From: Alicyclobacillus acidocaldarius subsp. acidocaldarius Tc-4-1
GTDB taxonomy: Bacteria > Bacillota > Bacilli > Alicyclobacillales > Alicyclobacillaceae
NCBI RefSeq assembly: GCF_000219875.1
Contig: NC_017167.1
Span: forward strand, 62,001 to 126,000
Reading direction: 5' to 3'
DNA length: 64,000 nt
The notes under the pieces were generated by a model, which searched no databases, had not been told where the DNA came from, and saw only the letters and a program-made list of their open reading frames with translations. A program made the position numbers and the translations under genes. Shown here in pieces: positions 5,758-33,214 of the stretch. How positions within the stretch are numbered: the stretch's first letter is position 1; every line of letters starts with the position of its first letter.

Positions 5758-6305
5758 ATCCGTTCGAGGGCCGGCGCGTGCTTCCTGCGGTGCGCAGCCC
5801 AAAGGATTTCGAGGAGCTGATGCAGGGGCCGCATCCGGTGGTGGTGCTCTTGGAGACGAATCTCACCGCGCTTCCGAGCCTGATGCGCCTGGCGAACAAG
5901 GCGGGAAAGCGTCTCATCCTCCATGCGGACCTGATTCAAGGGTTGAAGCACGACGAAGCGGGGACCCAGTTTCTGTGCCAGATGATCCGGCCGTACGGCA
6001 TCATCTCCACGCATGCGAGCGTGATTGCGACGGCGAAGAAGCAGGGCGTGATCGCCATCCAGCGCGTGTTTCTCATCGACTCGCACAGCCTGCGCACGAG
6101 TTACCGCGTTCTGCAGCAGGCGAAGCCGGATTACCTGGAGGTCCTGCCGGGCGTGGTGCCGCAGCTCATTGCGGAGATTCGCGAGCAGACGGGCCTGCCG
6201 GTGCTTGCGGGAGGGTTTGTGCGGACGAAGGAGGACGTGGAGCGGGCCGTCGCGGCTGGCGCGACGGCGGTGACCACCTCCGTGAAGGAACTGTGGCAGA
6301 TGTAG
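5754..6305 (+). CDS. glpP: Glycerol-3-phosphate-responsive antiterminator GlpP
   Basis: 183 residues, the normal size of the GlpP family, which folds as a phosphate-binding TIM-like barrel. Recognisable family stretches include VVVLLETNLTALPSLM, LHADLIQGLKHDE, GIISTHASVI and the C-terminal GLPVLAGGFV with a DVERAVAAGATAVTTS phosphate-binding end. By family it binds leader mRNA of glp genes when loaded with glycerol-3-phosphate, preventing termination. The expected targets are glpK and glpD about 7 kb away, both of which have hairpin leaders. Its start overlaps the stop of the LacI-type gene by 4 bases, so it is probably cotranscribed with a polysaccharide-use regulator, an unusual partner. 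Confidence 0.93.
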   Translation: MNPFEGRRVLPAVRSPKDFEELMQGPHPVVVLLETNLTALPSLMRLANKAGKRLILHADLIQGLKHDEAGTQFLCQMIRPYGIISTHASVIATAKKQGVIAIQRVFLIDSHSLRTSYRVLQQAKPDYLEVLPGVVPQLIAEIREQTGLPVLAGGFVRTKEDVERAVAAGATAVTTSVKELWQM

Positions 6306-6323
6306 GTGGGTTGTACGTCGGCC

Positions 6324-8042
6324 TCACTTGGCGATGCGCTCCGCTTCGCGCGTCGGCATGGCCTGCGGCTCTTGGTACGTGCCTCGAAATATCGAGGCCA
6401 CTGCGCCAATCACCATGAGGATGGCGGAGATGACAAACGCGAGCGCGAGGCCGGTGTGAAACGGCGACGAGATGAGCGTCGGGAAGAAGTACTTGCCCGT
6501 GATCACGGCGGCCTGGGACGCGGGCAGCTTGTTCAGGATGTTGAGGCCGCTTGGGCCGAGCAGGGACTCGAGTGGATTGTACCCGAGGAGCGCCGCGAAC
6601 AGCGACGAGGTGGGTGGAAGTTTCGCGATGGCCTCCGCCGCCTTGACGGGCACGCCGTGCGCCGTGAGCCCCGACACGAGCGCCTGTGGCAGCTTCGCCG
6701 CGAGCCCGGCCACCACGATGGAGAAAAAGATCCCCATGCTCATCATTTGCCCCGCATTGTTGAAGGTGGAGCGCATGCCGGACGCCACGCCCCGGTACTG
6801 CGCCGGTACGGAGCTCATGATGGAGGCGTTGTTCGGCGACGCAAACAGCCCCATCCCCACGCCGATGACGAAGATGTCCGCCCAGAACGCAAAGCGGTTG
6901 AAATCGATGGGAAGTGCGGCGAGCAGCAAAAATCCCACTGCACTCACCAAGAGGCCGCCCGTCGCGAAGGCGCGCTGCCCGAACTTGTCGGACAAGTAAC
7001 CGCTAAGTGGCCCCGCGGCAAGAAATCCCACCATCTGTGGCAGCGTGTAAAGCCCCGCGATAAGCGGTGTGTTCTCATACGACACGCCATGCAATGGCAG
7101 GTAGATCCCCTGCAGCCAGATGATCAGCATAAAGCTCAGGCCGCCTCGCGCGAGCGATCCCATGAACAGCGCCACGTTACCCAGCGTGAACGGCCGGATC
7201 CGGAACAGCTCGAGGCGAAACAGCGGATCTGGCATACGCCGCTCGATCACGGCGAACACGCCGAGCATCACGACGCCACCGACAAGGAGCGCAATGACCA
7301 TCGGCGACGACCAGCCCATGCTGTGTCCCCCGTACGGCATAATGCCATAGGTCAGCGCGAGCATGAGGGCCAGGACGCCGAGGGCCAAGGTCGCGTTACC
7401 CGGGATGTCGAGTTTCGCGTCGCGCTGCGGTTTGGCAATCTCCTTCAGCATCAGGTACGCCCACACGGTCCCGACGATCCCGATGGGCACATTGACGAGG
7501 AACACGTAACGCCAATGCCCGGTCGAGGCCAGGATCCCACCCAGCACAAGGCCCACGACGCTGCCCGCCACTGCGGCGATTTGGTTCAGGCCAAGCGCAA
7601 GACCGCGTTGGTTGTTGGGGAACGCGTCGGTCAGAATGGCGGCACTGTTGGAAAAGAGGAATGCACCGCCGATGCCCTGGATCATGCGGAAGATGATGAG
7701 CTCCAGTTCTCCCGCCCTGCCGTGGCTCCACGTCAGCGAGCAGAGCACCGAGCCGACGGTGAACACCAGGAATCCCAGGTTGTACAGGCGAACGCGGCCG
7801 AACATGTCGGAAAGTCGGCCGAACGTCACGAGTAACACCGTCGTCGCAACGTTGAAGCCCATCAGGACCCAGAGCAACAAACTCGTCTGCCCGCTCTGCA
7901 GCGGATTGACCTGAATCCCCGCAAAGATGACCGGGAGCGCGATGATGAGAATGGTACCATTGATGGAAGCCATCAACACGCCAAGCGTGGTGTTGGAGAG
8001 CGCAATCCACTTGTATGCGGAGCTTCGCGCGTCCAAGGCCAT
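6324..8042 (-). CDS. DHA2-type MFS multidrug transporter
   Basis: 572 residues with about 14 membrane segments, typical of the EmrB/QacA (DHA2) branch of the major facilitator superfamily. The motif A-like loop GRLSDMFGRVRLYNLG follows TM2, and a motif C-like stretch (GSVVGLVLGGIL) is in TM5. By family it is a proton antiporter exporting drugs or lipophilic compounds. The ATG start overlaps the stop codon of the upstream merR-type gene (TGATG), so the pair is one operon under that regulator. An in-frame GTG one codon earlier is also possible. Convergent with glpP, with only an 18-base gap. Confidence 0.93.
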   Translation of the reverse strand: MALDARSSAYKWIALSNTTLGVLMASINGTILIIALPVIFAGIQVNPLQSGQTSLLLWVLMGFNVATTVLLVTFGRLSDMFGRVRLYNLGFLVFTVGSVLCSLTWSHGRAGELELIIFRMIQGIGGAFLFSNSAAILTDAFPNNQRGLALGLNQIAAVAGSVVGLVLGGILASTGHWRYVFLVNVPIGIVGTVWAYLMLKEIAKPQRDAKLDIPGNATLALGVLALMLALTYGIMPYGGHSMGWSSPMVIALLVGGVVMLGVFAVIERRMPDPLFRLELFRIRPFTLGNVALFMGSLARGGLSFMLIIWLQGIYLPLHGVSYENTPLIAGLYTLPQMVGFLAAGPLSGYLSDKFGQRAFATGGLLVSAVGFLLLAALPIDFNRFAFWADIFVIGVGMGLFASPNNASIMSSVPAQYRGVASGMRSTFNNAGQMMSMGIFFSIVVAGLAAKLPQALVSGLTAHGVPVKAAEAIAKLPPTSSLFAALLGYNPLESLLGPSGLNILNKLPASQAAVITGKYFFPTLISSPFHTGLALAFVISAILMVIGAVASIFRGTYQEPQAMPTREAERIAK

Positions 8043-28040: not shown

Positions 28041-29237
28041 TTATGGGCGGCGCATTTCGTACGGCCGCCCCTTCCAGTGATCTCCTGTATGGAACCAGAA
28101 CCGCCTGGCGGAATCGAGCGTCATGAGCGTGTACAGGAAGCCTGCCACGGGAAGCAGGGCGGATCGCGCCGGCGACAGGTGGTACCAGCGGAGCATCGGC
28201 ACGAAGGTCGCGGCGAGAATGGCGTATGCGATTCCGCCAAGGCACAAAGCGTCGAGTCCCCCCTGCGCGCCCGCCAGAAGACCTGCGAGGCCGGCGATAA
28301 GAGCTATGGGGGGCACGGCGTACAAGAGCAGCATGCCGAGGGCGGTGCCCACGAGCAGCCAGGCGGAAAACCGCAGCTGCACGAACGCGGTGCGCGCAAT
28401 CATCCGCCAGATCTCGCCGAGGCTTCCGTAGGCACGCACGCTCACCACGTCGTCGCCAAGCCCGAGCCAGAGGCGCCCGCCGCCATCCGCCACGAGCCGA
28501 GCGAGCGCACAGTCGTCGATCACGGCATTGCGAATGGGCTCAAGGCCCGGGGGCATGGGCAACAGGCGGCGCCGGACGAGCACGCATCCGCCCGCCGCGG
28601 CCGCGGTCCTTCGCCTAGGGTGGGACACCCACGCGAACGGGTACAGCTTCGCGAAGAAGTACACGAAGGCCGGAATGAGGAGCTTTTCCCATGGGCTCTC
28701 GGCCCTGAGCCGGACCATGAGCGAGACGAGGTCCAACCCGTCTCGCTCGGCCCGCGCCACGAGGGCCTGGACGCTCGTCGGTGCATGCGAGATGTCCGCG
28801 TCCGTGAACAGCACGTACGCCGCATCGTCCGGCACGTGCCTGAGCCCATTCTGCATGGCCCACACCTTGCCCGCCCACCCGGGCGGAAGCGCATCCGCGC
28901 GCACCACGCGCAGCCGGTCCGCCAGGCCAAGCTCCGCCGCAATGCGCTCGGCCACCTCCGCCGTGCCGTCTGTGCTGTGATCGTCCACGAGCACGACGTG
29001 GAACTCACCGGGATACGCCTGCGAGAGAAGCGTCGGAAGCGTCCTCGACAGGACGTCCGCCTCGTTGCGCGCGGGCACCACGGCCCACACGGCCGGCCAC
29101 GCGTCGGGCGCCCTCGCCTCGGCCGCCATTCTTGCGGTATTCATGGAGAGCGCCGTGCGCCAATAGAAGCCGCGTCCGACAAGCAGAAAGATCCACGCCA
29201 CGAGACTTACGGCCGCGGCCCAAGCCAGCGCCGTCAT
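28041..29237 (-). CDS. hpnB: Hopene-associated glycosyltransferase HpnB
   Basis: 398 residues, GT2 family. N-terminal TM anchor (residues 1-22), GT-A domain with VVPARNEADVLSRTLPTLL, LVDDHSTDGTAEVA and FTDADISHAPTSVQALV (DxD), an acceptor-side IDDCALARLV, and 3-4 C-terminal membrane helices ending in RFWFHTGDHWKGRPYE. The length, C-terminal helices and D-D-C-A-L-A pattern match HpnB, which is associated with hopanoid gene clusters. Alicyclobacillus membranes are known to be rich in hopanoids. No other hopanoid gene (shc, hpnG, hpnH) lies in the window. GGAAGGAGCG ribosome site before the ATG. Confidence 0.85.
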   Translation of the reverse strand: MTALAWAAAVSLVAWIFLLVGRGFYWRTALSMNTARMAAEARAPDAWPAVWAVVPARNEADVLSRTLPTLLSQAYPGEFHVVLVDDHSTDGTAEVAERIAAELGLADRLRVVRADALPPGWAGKVWAMQNGLRHVPDDAAYVLFTDADISHAPTSVQALVARAERDGLDLVSLMVRLRAESPWEKLLIPAFVYFFAKLYPFAWVSHPRRRTAAAAGGCVLVRRRLLPMPPGLEPIRNAVIDDCALARLVADGGGRLWLGLGDDVVSVRAYGSLGEIWRMIARTAFVQLRFSAWLLVGTALGMLLLYAVPPIALIAGLAGLLAGAQGGLDALCLGGIAYAILAATFVPMLRWYHLSPARSALLPVAGFLYTLMTLDSARRFWFHTGDHWKGRPYEMRRP

Positions 29238-29290
29238 GGGGCAACGCTCCTTCCTTCGCGGCGCCTATCGCCGCGTTGTCCAACGATGCC

Positions 29291-29321
29291 TGTACAATTG
29301 CTTCTGAACTCAGTATACTGA
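29291..29321 (+). promoter_or_regulatory. Promoter and palindromic operator of the XRE-kinase gene
   Basis: TGTACA, 17 bases, TATACT. The -10 box is the centre of a perfect 12-bp palindrome TCAGTATACTGA (29310-29321). The XRE domain of the following gene is the obvious candidate binder, suggesting autorepression. Confidence 0.5.
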
Positions 29322-29345
29322 TTAGAAACTTGCGTGCGGGGACGG

Positions 29346-30140
29346 ATGCCCGTGAGTCAAATTCGCTTTCACCTGGATCGGCTCCTGTCTGAGCGAAACT
29401 GGAAAGTTCCCGACCTGGTGAAACGGTCCGGTGTCAACAAGAACACGCTTTACGCCATGAAGAAAAACGCCATCACCCGCGTGGATCTCCGGGTGTTAGA
29501 ACGAATTTGCGACGCGCTCGCGTGCAAGCTGTCCGATCTCATGACCTACGAACCAGAGGGGGAGACGCATACGAAGGGCCTGCTCTTCATCCTGTCCGGG
29601 CCGTCCGGAGCAGGAAAAAACACGCTCATCAACGCGCTCCGGGATCGGTACGATCTCGGCCTTACGTTCATCCCGTCGTTTTCGACGAGGCCGATGCGGC
29701 CGGGTGAGACGAACGGCAATCCCTACTACTTCGTGTCCCGCGAAGAGTTCATGCGCATGGCCGAGCGGGGCGAATTCCTCGAGTACGAAACCATCCATGG
29801 GAACTTGTACGGCACGCACCTGTTGAGTTACGAGCGGGCCCTCAACGAGGGCCGCATGATCATCAAGGACATCGACGTAAACGGCGCGCTCAACATGAAG
29901 CGCGTGTTTGGCGATCGCGTCATCCTGATCTACGTCCGCCCGACGTGCCTCGACGATCTCGAAGGAAGGCTTCACCACCGCGGCGACAAAGAGGAAGACA
30001 TACGCATCCGCATGCAGCGTCTCAAGTACGAGGAGTCGCTGTCGGATCAGTTCGATTTCCTCATCTTCAACGATGACGTCGCCACCGCCACGGCGGAACT
30101 CGCCCACATCATTCGCACCTGCACGAGAAAGCACGCGTAA
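29346..30140 (+). CDS. XRE helix-turn-helix fused to a guanylate kinase-like domain
   Basis: 264 residues. Residues about 5-66 form a Cro/CI-type helix-turn-helix (VPDLVKRSGVNKNTLYAMKK, LRVLERICDALACKLSDLM). Residues about 77-264 are a guanylate kinase-like domain with P-loop GPSGAGKNT (85-93), GMP-binding STRPMRPGETNGNPYYFVS and FLEYETIHGNLYGT, and a lid region rich in Arg. In the P-loop an Asn replaces the usual Ser/Thr/Gly after Lys. It could be a nucleotide-sensing repressor or an active kinase under self-control. A start at 29352 (GTG) is also possible; the ribosome site is weak. Followed 12 bases later by a sensor kinase gene. Confidence 0.85.
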   Translation: MPVSQIRFHLDRLLSERNWKVPDLVKRSGVNKNTLYAMKKNAITRVDLRVLERICDALACKLSDLMTYEPEGETHTKGLLFILSGPSGAGKNTLINALRDRYDLGLTFIPSFSTRPMRPGETNGNPYYFVSREEFMRMAERGEFLEYETIHGNLYGTHLLSYERALNEGRMIIKDIDVNGALNMKRVFGDRVILIYVRPTCLDDLEGRLHHRGDKEEDIRIRMQRLKYEESLSDQFDFLIFNDDVATATAELAHIIRTCTRKHA

Positions 30141-30152
30141 AGGCGGGACAGC

Positions 30153-32108
30153 ATGCAGGTCAACGTTCATCCCCGCGTGCGCTTTTCGCTGCGCTACAAG
30201 ATCATCGCCATCCTCTTTGGCGCCATGCTCGTGGTCCTCGCGCTCGGCGGGACGCTGTTTTACAGCGTCGCCAGGCAGCAGATGCTCAAGAGCGCGGACA
30301 AGCAGGCGCAGCTCCTCGCGCAACAGATTGAGCTCGAGGTCGAGTCGAGCGAGGCCGGGCAAGCCTACATCGACAACCTCCTCGGCAACGAGCTGCGCAT
30401 CGCCTCCATCGCGATTGAAAAGCAACTCCGGCCCCACTGGCGGGACGTGACCAACGCTCAGTTGCGCCAGTTATCCGCAGAGCTCGGCGTGAGCGGCATC
30501 ACGCTTCTCGCGCCCACGGCCGACGACATCGTGGGCGTGCGCTCGTCGGATCCGCGCGAGATTGGCCTTTCCACGCGCGGCATGGGCAAATGGTACATCG
30601 CTTTCCGCGATCTTCTCGCCGGAAGGCCCCAAGCGTCCACGTACGGCACCGCAGAGAAAAACTACTGGTCCGGGCCCTTCGCCAACGCCGCCTCCGATCC
30701 GTCCAAGGTCGACAAGTGGGGCTACTACTACGACGGCACGACGGACTACATCATCGATCCGTTTTACGTCCAGACGTCCATCCCCGGCTACGAACAGGTG
30801 GTCAGCGTCAACAGCACCATCCGCCACATCCTGGCGACCGAGCCTGACATCCTGTCCATCGCCGTGCTGAACAAGACCTTTGACGAAAAGCCGATTCGTT
30901 ACTCGTACAAGGGCCTCTCCTGGATCGATATCGCCAATCAGCCCGTCATGTACGGCGCCTATCGGTATGCCGATCACGACCTCGACGTCAAGCTCAAAGA
31001 CCGCGCTTTGTCCACGGGCCACATGCAGACGGCCCTCGATCACATCGACGGCACGACGGTGATGAAGGCGTTCATCCCCGAGTCGGAGCAGGGGAGTCGA
31101 TACGTCGTCGAGATCGTGATGAACTACCACCTCATCACGGCACAACTGGCGGATCTTCTGCACGACATGGCCATTCTGGGCGGGGCGCTCCTCGTGCTGA
31201 CTGGCGTGCTCTCGTTCGTCGGCGCGGAGCTCATCACGCGCCCGCTCAAGCGCATCACCGAGGCGGTGGACGAAATTGCCGACCGGAATTTCGCGGCGCA
31301 CGTCGAGGTGGCGCGATCGGACGAGATTGGCGTGCTCGCCGCGCACGTGAACGAGATGTCGGAGAAGCTGGTGGAATATTTGCGCGAACTCACGCGCCGG
31401 GAGCGCGGCAGGGGCGTCGATTACCTCGTGATGGCTACCCAGGCGCTGGTGCACGAGCTCGGCACGCCGCTCGCCGCCATGCGGCAGATGGCGGAGCTCT
31501 TGCCGAGGATCGAGCCGAACCTCGGAGAGAAGGCGCGCGAGATCCTCGAGCGGATGCGATCCGCTTCTGAATACGCGAATCGAATCGCACGAGACTTCAC
31601 GGCGTTCTTGCGCAACGGCATGCTGACCGTGAGGCGCCGCGACGTGGTGCGGCTGGTGTCGGACGCCGTTGGCCTGTGTTCGTCCATGGCCCAGGCCCGC
31701 CATGTGAAGCTCTCGTTTCGAAACGAGACCGGACATCGGCACGTGTACCTCGATGTGGATGAAGACAAGCTGTTTGGCGCCATCGTGAACCTCGTGAGAA
31801 ACGCCATTGACGCCATTCCGGACGATCGCGCCCGGCGCGAGGTGGACGTGACGGTGAGAATAGAAGCCGAAGAGCTGCACATCGACGTGATCGACAGCGG
31901 CGTCGGGATCCCGCGGGACCGCTGGGACCGGATTTTTGTTCCGTACAGTTCCACGAAAAAGGGCGGGCTGGGCCTTGGGCTCACGTTCTGCGGCCTCATC
32001 GCCATCGCGCACGGCGGGACGGTGGGCGTGGTCCAGTCCAGCCCTCAGGGCACGCACATCCGCATGCGCCTGCCCCTCAAGCACGAGCCGATTCAGGTGG
32101 ACGCGTAG
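30153..32108 (+). CDS. Sensor histidine kinase with Cache-type sensor and HAMP
   Basis: 651 residues. TM1 at about 17-40, a large extracytoplasmic domain of about 290 residues with Cache-like features (WYIAFRDLLAGRP, YYYDGTTDYIIDPFY), TM2 at about 337-360, HAMP to about 413 (ITRPLKRITEAVDEIADRNF), HisKA with His434 (ALVHELGTPLAAMRQ) and HATPase_c (NLVRNAIDAI, DSGVGIPRDRW, GLGLGLTFCGLIA). The H-box reads HELGTPL rather than HELRTPL. It senses an external ligand and should phosphorylate a partner regulator, but none is encoded nearby. It probably shares a transcript with the XRE-guanylate kinase gene 12 bases upstream. Confidence 0.92.
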   Translation: MQVNVHPRVRFSLRYKIIAILFGAMLVVLALGGTLFYSVARQQMLKSADKQAQLLAQQIELEVESSEAGQAYIDNLLGNELRIASIAIEKQLRPHWRDVTNAQLRQLSAELGVSGITLLAPTADDIVGVRSSDPREIGLSTRGMGKWYIAFRDLLAGRPQASTYGTAEKNYWSGPFANAASDPSKVDKWGYYYDGTTDYIIDPFYVQTSIPGYEQVVSVNSTIRHILATEPDILSIAVLNKTFDEKPIRYSYKGLSWIDIANQPVMYGAYRYADHDLDVKLKDRALSTGHMQTALDHIDGTTVMKAFIPESEQGSRYVVEIVMNYHLITAQLADLLHDMAILGGALLVLTGVLSFVGAELITRPLKRITEAVDEIADRNFAAHVEVARSDEIGVLAAHVNEMSEKLVEYLRELTRRERGRGVDYLVMATQALVHELGTPLAAMRQMAELLPRIEPNLGEKAREILERMRSASEYANRIARDFTAFLRNGMLTVRRRDVVRLVSDAVGLCSSMAQARHVKLSFRNETGHRHVYLDVDEDKLFGAIVNLVRNAIDAIPDDRARREVDVTVRIEAEELHIDVIDSGVGIPRDRWDRIFVPYSSTKKGGLGLGLTFCGLIAIAHGGTVGVVQSSPQGTHIRMRLPLKHEPIQVDA

Positions 32109-33214
32109 ATGGTGATGCGCGTGGTGAGCTTGTGCGTCTCGTCGAACAGGGTGGGCGGCACGTCAAACCACGCGTCCTGGGCGGAGCCCCAGGTGGGGTC
32201 CACCAGGATGTACCGGTCTTGGTTCGGAATCCACACCTCGTTCCACGCGTGGGACCCTTCCACCCCGCCGGTCACCGCCACGCCCTCGTCGATGCGCACG
32301 GTCAGACCCACGGCATGCGCCATGTCCGCATAGAGGAGCGCGTAGTCGGCGCACACGCCCTTTCCGGTCTCGAGCGTGGTGAGCGGGGACTGAGCGTCCC
32401 ATTTGCCATCGTAGACATAGTCGTCATATTTCTTCCAGTCGTAGTGGATGTGGTGGATCTCCCACTCGTACAAGGCGCGCGCCTTGGCGTACGGAGAGGT
32501 TAAGCCGCGCGTGATGGCAAGGGCTTTTTCGGCCACCGGCTTTGGAACGACCAGGATGCCTGTCTCCTCGCCGGGGCCCGTGGGCACGACGAACAGAGAG
32601 ATATCGGCTGCCACGGTCTGCGCCGCACCTTTGGCCAAAATCGGCATTTCCCGCTCCGCGACGGGCCGAAGCCATGGCGTGTAGACGTGATGCGAAAGCC
32701 AGCGGTACGCGGGCGACGCCTGGGCGGCTCGCGCGAGGGCCGGCGCCGAGACGTACTGGAGAACGAGAAACACGCAAGCGCCGGCGGCCGCGGCGCGAAC
32801 GGCGCCGAGCGCGCCGCCGACCACGAGCCCGCCGGCGCGGCTCAAGGCGCGGACGCGTCCCCGCGGCCGGATCCACCTGGCGAAAAGTGGCGCGAGCAGC
32901 GCTCCGATGGCGGACGAGACGATGAGATACGCGGCGAGAAACGCTATCCAGTTGCACAGCCTCGGAGATTGCTGCCAAAACGCGGCGAGATGCGCTAGCC
33001 AGCCTGGCACAAAAGCGCGCTGGCCATCCTCCAGGACGAAGTTGCGGATGGAGCGGCTCGCCGCAAAGGCGGATGCGGACGAGGCGACCACCTCGGCGAC
33101 AAATGCCGCGGTCTGTACAAGCCTCCGCGACTCTCGTTCAAATCCGCGCCGCAAGCCCGACAAGGCCGAAACCGCCACAATCGCCCACAACACCCACTCT
33201 AGCCAGTCGTTCAC
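32093..33214 (-). CDS. CvpA-like membrane domain fused to a transglutaminase-like domain
   Basis: 373 residues from a GTG after GGAGGTG. Residues 1-160 hold four membrane segments with a CvpA-like start (WVLWAIVAVSALSGLRRGFERE). Residues about 235-373 are a transglutaminase/protease-like domain with triad Cys about 288 (GKGVCADYALLY), His about 322 (GSHAWNEV) and Asp about 339 (YILVDPTWG). The catalytic domain should face outside or be attached to the membrane. The family includes peptidases and amidases acting on cell-wall or surface protein; the substrate is unknown. Its 3' end overlaps the convergent kinase gene by 16 bases. Confidence 0.85.
   Translation of the reverse strand: MNDWLEWVLWAIVAVSALSGLRRGFERESRRLVQTAAFVAEVVASSASAFAASRSIRNFVLEDGQRAFVPGWLAHLAAFWQQSPRLCNWIAFLAAYLIVSSAIGALLAPLFARWIRPRGRVRALSRAGGLVVGGALGAVRAAAAGACVFLVLQYVSAPALARAAQASPAYRWLSHHVYTPWLRPVAEREMPILAKGAAQTVAADISLFVVPTGPGEETGILVVPKPVAEKALAITRGLTSPYAKARALYEWEIHHIHYDWKKYDDYVYDGKWDAQSPLTTLETGKGVCADYALLYADMAHAVGLTVRIDEGVAVTGGVEGSHAWNEVWIPNQDRYILVDPTWGSAQDAWFDVPPTLFDETHKLTTRITIYAST

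Follow-up and report, generated by a model that had tools for sequence, protein, structure and literature searches.

A helix-turn-helix domain on the sole predicted guanylate kinase of Alicyclobacillus acidocaldarius Tc-4-1, a possible regulator of its own gene

We analyzed a stretch of 64,000 nucleotides of the A. acidocaldarius Tc-4-1 genome (hereafter, the window; all positions refer to it unless stated otherwise). At the locus under study, a promoter-like sequence precedes a gene encoding a helix-turn-helix (HTH)–guanylate kinase (GMK) fusion, and a histidine kinase gene follows. The features of the locus are as follows.

29279–29294, plus strand: candidate operator A, TCCAACGATGCCTGTA, overlapping the −35 hexamer; a copy of an element common to five promoter groups
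29291–29319, plus strand: promoter-like match TGTACA-17-TATACT, the sole match in 29150–32300 (shuffle mean, 0.6)
29300–29315, plus strand: second, weaker copy of the element (B), located 21 bp 3′ of A and overlapping the −10 hexamer
29310–29321, no strand: 12-bp palindrome TCAGTATACTGA across the −10 hexamer, confined to the A. acidocaldarius group
29352–30140, plus strand: HTH–GMK fusion gene (262 aa from GTG 29352; 264 aa from ATG 29346)
29370–29558, plus strand: HTH_26 domain (Cro/C1-type), residues 9–71 of the fusion protein P0001 (E = 3.6e-19)
29583–30116, plus strand: Guanylate_kin domain, residues 80–257 of P0001 (E = 5.6e-36)
29598–29624, plus strand: P-loop GPSGAGKNT, read from the sequence
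30153–32108, plus strand: orphan HAMP/HisKA/HATPase_c histidine kinase, a neighbor and no conserved partner

A single open frame (29346–30140) contains the HTH and GMK domains in one protein, so that an HTH–GMK fusion is evident from the sequence; this agrees with the first-pass annotation, which had described an XRE HTH joined to a guanylate kinase-like domain. The GTG codon at 29352 is probably the start of the gene, since for many relatives the alignment begins at residue 3. The HTH scored 69.2 bits against PF13443 (gathering score, 22) and the fusion scored 169.8 bits against the NCBIfam guanylate kinase model TIGR03263 (cut-off, 160.45), both of which are passing scores. An AlphaFold2 model of the fusion had a mean pLDDT of 84.6 and a pTM of 0.63, and the best 50 Foldseek matches of this model were all guanylate kinases, with the E. 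coli GMK at the top (E = 5.1e-17). The fusion chain stops about 6 residues past the GMK domain, compared with about 22 in the E. coli chain. The architecture, an HTH fused to a metabolic enzyme, is the one known from bifunctional enzyme-regulators. The protein is 98.9% identical to the fusion of a second genome (G002), the named relatives with the same fusion gene are species of the acid-loving genus Alicyclobacillus, and one scan of viral_contigs revealed no relatives.

The complete genome of 3,124,048 bp was searched for other guanylate kinases using PF00625 and TIGR03263 (E up to 10). PF00625 gave one match, the fusion itself. TIGR03263 gave 18 matches at E up to 10, among which only the fusion exceeded the cut-off; the 17 others were weak, and the best two of these were the Der GTPase (L003) and an NYN-like ORF (L004). 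The separate, normal gmk gene whose existence the first-pass annotation had proposed to check was therefore absent from both searches of the complete genome. These results indicate that the fusion is the sole GMK encoded by this genome. In the genus (g1), all 15 genomes had exactly one PF00625 match, which was the fusion in 14 of them; the exception, G005, encodes a standard GMK in a 203-aa frame. At the family level, a PF00625 match was found in 40 of 41 genomes, the one without a match being G037 (91% complete). These 40 comprise 17 fusion genomes (the 14 of genus g1 plus G030, G031, and G032), one genome with an HTH-less GMK of the fusion lineage (G033, 85% complete), and 22 with a standard GMK; a standard gmk and a fusion-lineage GMK coexisted in none of the 40. 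Two of the standard-GMK genomes (G015 and G017) each gave an additional, weaker PF00625 match, and these second proteins are neither of the standard nor of the fusion type, because their P-loop reads GPSGSGKTT and their scores lie below the NCBIfam cut-off. They correspond to a second, shorter GMK-like protein beside the standard gmk (L212, 397–867; L213, 672–1136). Across 249 genomes of the phylum, the HTH was covered solely by the window's own match, among the matches listed. This patchy and mutually exclusive distribution allows near relatives with the fusion (e.g. G003) to be compared with one that lacks it (G005).

The fusion and the standard GMK of G005 were 34% identical in an alignment, and the residues identical in both proteins included K14, S34, R38, R41, Y50, E69, Y78, T80, D100, R131, R135, and R145 (alignment numbering), positions that act in GMP and ATP binding in the yeast enzyme and that include the lid arginine. 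The residue following the P-loop lysine is asparagine in the fusion, and the first-pass annotation was thus correct in reading a P-loop that ends in K-N-T rather than K-S/G-T. The same K-N-T was found in 12 of the 28 GMKs that were read outside the family, and the genomes encoding these 12 had one match each. GMK, which acts in GTP synthesis, is generally indispensable. Since the cell appears to have no other GMK, GMK activity is the natural expectation for the fusion, which is predicted to be catalytically competent in converting GMP and ATP to GDP and ADP.

Genomic context and phylogeny both bear on the origin of the fusion. According to gene coordinates, the 21 genomes outside the genus that encode a standard GMK all have remA directly 5′ of gmk. 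The corresponding locus in the window's genome (G000) reads yicC-rpoZ-coaBC, with both remA and gmk missing, and that of G030 reads yicC-remA-rpoZ-coaBC, with gmk missing; in G032 and G033, the gap from remA to rpoZ is ~130–140 bp, and in G005 gmk is retained between yicC and coaBC. A branch with an SH-aLRT support of 99 separated the family's 22 standard GMKs from the rest of a tree built from 69 GMK domains, and the fusions were placed in another clade than these (support, 99), together with the long row L107. The top-scoring relatives outside the family came from families f19 and f47 (eight genomes); these GMKs are unfused and of the K-N-T type, and each was the only match in its genome at E 1e-20. 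Since the joining of these GMKs with the fusion clade in the tree may be long-branch attraction, as a tool warning indicated, their kinship rests also on profile scores, which were 180–195 bits for f19/f47 and at most 161 bits for the rest, among the matches listed. Together, these comparisons indicate that the ancestral gmk was replaced by an unrelated version fused to an HTH. A YicC+CoaBC tree nested G005 within the fusion-bearing genus as sister to G003, G006, and G007 (support, 100) and placed genus g9 apart from g1 with weak support; therefore, loss, re-gain or transfer would have occurred more than once.

Several further observations concern these loci. RemA (PF04025) was found in none of the 15 genomes of genus g1 vs all 26 other genomes of the family, its loss extending to G005 despite the standard gmk of that genome. 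G005 also contains three RNA polymerase omega-like (PF01192) matches (C1 positions 2612629, 2854279, and 3691117). The HTH-less GMK of G033 (MAG HOG9; L061, 6473–7162) belongs to the fusion lineage and lacks the promoter element described below; its N-terminus carries the extension VVQFNPRYRRDREG, which is similar both to the linker found in the g9 fusions and to the N-terminal ends of the f19/f47 GMKs. Judging from these features, this gene perhaps represents a pre-fusion state or a loss.

We compared the conservation of the domains among 15 sequences. Invariant columns made up 32 of 64 in the HTH, 90 of 180 in the GMK domain, and 0 of 19 in the linker, and the HTH helix region SGVNKNTLYA was nearly constant over the 15 relatives. 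Where it could be computed, dN/dS was 0.010–0.185 for the HTH and 0.012–0.110 for the GMK domain. The HTH is thus strongly constrained, though somewhat less so over short distances, as its dN/dS exceeded that of the GMK domain in 6 of the 8 close pairs that had both values. These patterns indicate that the HTH is under purifying selection.

A promoter element accompanies the fusion gene. The perfect 12-bp palindrome that had been noted over the −10 box is indeed present, across the −10 of TGTACA-17-TATACT; it occurs once in the window and arose in 0 of 100 shuffles. It was exact in only 6 of 18 aligned promoters, all from the A. acidocaldarius group, and was rejected as a conserved site on this ground. 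Instead, the sequence TCCAAYGAWGNNTGTA was common to the upstream sequences of 18 genes, and the 16-bp element T[AC]CAAYGAW[CG]NNTGTA was matched by 16 of the 17 fusion promoters, that of L054 (sacchari) deviating by one base; no match was found upstream of the HTH-less L061 (n = 1). The best 16-mer common to the five promoter groups scored 54, whereas none of 60 shuffles exceeded 43. Matrices built by leaving out one group at a time found the site of each group, with a score reached once in the 127,970 16-mers of the window, at the window's own site. With zero mismatches, each of seven fusion genomes had a single TMCAAYGAWSNNTGTA site, located at the gmk fusion gene in all seven. A looser pattern matched at gmk in 8 of 10 fusion genomes (2 without) and elsewhere in G002, G032, and G007, two fusion genomes having an additional exact match elsewhere. 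These results point to a conserved promoter element that, at zero mismatch, is unique to the fusion gene. The promoters are related, and this conservation is in part due to common descent and to constraint on the core promoter; as it overlaps the promoter hexamers, the element could be the promoter itself.

The element occurs as two copies. In the window, the score of copy B at the 21-bp offset was reached by 0.4% of 16-mers. Each of the five groups had a weaker second copy at a distance of 21 bp from the strong copy, with a combined p of 3e-10, a value that is too small because the spacing was noticed by eye before the test and the related groups were treated as independent. Among 38 offsets tested over the five groups, 21 was the best (next best, 5e-4). 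Whether A or B is the strong copy depends on the group; in the suci/fastidiosus and ALC3 groups, it is the one over the −10. In the window, A lies over the −35 and B over the −10, a position that would suit a repressor. A Cro/C1-type dimer would usually want a clean palindrome, which the element is not.

Since the HTH is conserved and the promoter element is unique to the gene, the reading in which the fusion binds DNA gains support. With moderate confidence, we consider the protein to be a functional GMK that controls its own gene and is probably gated by guanine nucleotides. In this mechanism, the fusion would produce GDP from GMP as the only GMK of the cell, and its HTH would bind the two copies of the element, two helical turns (21 bp) apart over its own −35 and −10, thereby repressing its own promoter. 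A guanine nucleotide in the kinase site (GMP, GDP or an alarmone such as ppGpp) would alter the dimer and change its grip on DNA, such that the capacity to make GTP would be self-adjusting. That a guanine nucleotide modulates a DNA-binding repressor had been suggested by the first-pass annotation; this is still the most plausible reading, now with the conserved HTH and the gene-specific element beside it, although it is from sequence that we infer DNA binding, the sign of regulation, and ligand gating. The full proposal, in which the sole GMK is an autorepressor gated by guanine nucleotides or ppGpp, acts mainly on its own promoter, and was installed by replacing the gmk of the remA-gmk-rpoZ locus, is put forward only tentatively.

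Among other explanations, the first-pass annotation had proposed that the fusion forms a two-gene signaling unit with an orphan Cache sensor kinase starting 12 bases on. The spacing holds, as the kinase start lies 12 nt past the fusion stop codon, and so does the kinase assignment (HAMP/HisKA/HATPase_c); a Cache domain, in contrast, gave no Pfam match at E ≤ 0.1, and the model of the sensor region was poor (mean pLDDT, 40.9). The kinase gene is directly 3′ of the fusion in 6 of the 17 fusion loci, all in the A. acidocaldarius group. It lies one gene further in 4 of 17 (one cut by a contig end), with a PAS-GGDEF-EAL gene intervening in the hesperidum, sacchari, tengchongensis, and acidiphilus loci (domains called on L048 alone), and no histidine kinase was found near the fusion in 7 of 17 loci, although L059 has only ~5 kb downstream. 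Since the pairing is not conserved, the kinase was rejected as a partner, and a two-gene unit seems highly improbable. In L048, the PAS-GGDEF-EAL gene between gmk and the histidine kinase occupies 6257–8038. We regard it as equally remote that the kinase domain is a degenerate, BzdR-like one whose sole role is to sense nucleotides. A P-loop with K-N-T where K-G/S-T is expected would fit such a sensor, but K-N-T is no mark of degeneracy, because the active-site positions are kept, the genome has no other GMK, and K-N-T is also found in the sole GMKs of unrelated genomes.

It is also conceivable, but unlikely, that the HTH controls a wider regulon of purine or growth genes, with the gmk site as one target among several. 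When up to one mismatch was allowed, TMCAAYGAWSNNTGTA gave 90 matches (83 with one mismatch) vs 68 for a reversed-pattern control, with more matches in 6 of the 7 genomes, so there is room for further targets; against this, the zero-mismatch site occurs at gmk alone. A rather doubtful explanation, which nevertheless deserves more weight, is that the fusion functions as the sole GMK but that its HTH has lost DNA binding and acts solely as a dimerization or stability module, perhaps replacing the usual C-terminal helix. The short chain end would suit this role, dimer contacts of the C-terminal tail matter in other bacterial GMKs (PMC6783271), and the HTH has a higher dN/dS than the GMK domain in most close pairs. 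Against this explanation, SGVNKNTLYA is almost constant in 15 relatives, and a gene-specific promoter element is kept with the HTH and missing without it (n = 1).

The autoregulatory reading can be set against known systems. The fusion shares with a standard Gmk (TIGR03263/PF00625) the domain, fold, active-site positions, a score above the curated cut-off, and the status of sole copy; it differs in its N-terminal HTH, K-N-T, short C-terminus, separate clade, and locus. RbkR, an archaeal HTH-riboflavin kinase, likewise combines an HTH with a metabolic kinase, but it belongs to another kinase family and pathway and to archaea. In Enterobacterales, NadR carries an N-terminal repressor HTH on an active enzyme and represses NAD genes (PMC12421817). 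The fusion is similar in that a putative repressor HTH precedes an enzyme of nucleotide metabolism, a likeness of kind and not of descent. NadR acts in the NAD pathway with two enzymatic domains (PMC12421817), whereas the fusion concerns guanine nucleotides, has one enzyme and no second copy, and has its own promoter as the only candidate target. BzdR also joins an HTH-XRE through a linker to a P-loop kinase domain, in this case a shikimate kinase domain, but it is no longer active as an enzyme and instead senses benzoyl-CoA (PMC3602430); the enzyme of the fusion appears indispensable and intact. The Bacillus subtilis GMK is inhibited by ppGpp, and GMK is a control point of GTP supply in Firmicutes; how other GMKs respond to ppGpp is determined by the C-terminal tail of the partner subunit (PMC6783271). 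The fusion would resemble the B. subtilis enzyme as a GTP-supply control point with a ligand response via dimer contacts, but the known control of the latter is exerted on the enzyme, which has no DNA-binding domain (PMC6783271), whereas the fusion has an HTH. Because the C-terminus of the fusion is short, the protein may differ in its dimer contacts and in its response to ppGpp.

Enzyme–HTH fusions are thus already known (NadR and BzdR), and what appears new here is an HTH on the sole GMK; no description of an HTH fused to the only guanylate kinase of a cell was found in the library of open-licence papers searched. A natural replacement appears to have placed a DNA-binding domain on the enzyme controlling GTP supply throughout the genus (14 of 15 genomes). 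If the promoter is bound, the fusion would be a compact case in which a central nucleotide enzyme conveys its ligand state to transcription, and would offer a natural example of a metabolic enzyme gaining regulation with its activity retained. If it is indeed an autorepressor, one protein would form a circuit linking GTP-making capacity directly to transcription.

Two minor observations were made on neighboring and related sequences. On the minus strand of the window, 32093–33214 encodes a colicin V production-like part joined to a transglutaminase-like part. In addition, long C-terminal extensions are present on the GMK-like proteins L105, L116, L118, L119, and L120, from MAGs of Spirochaetia, Chloroflexota, and Clostridia.
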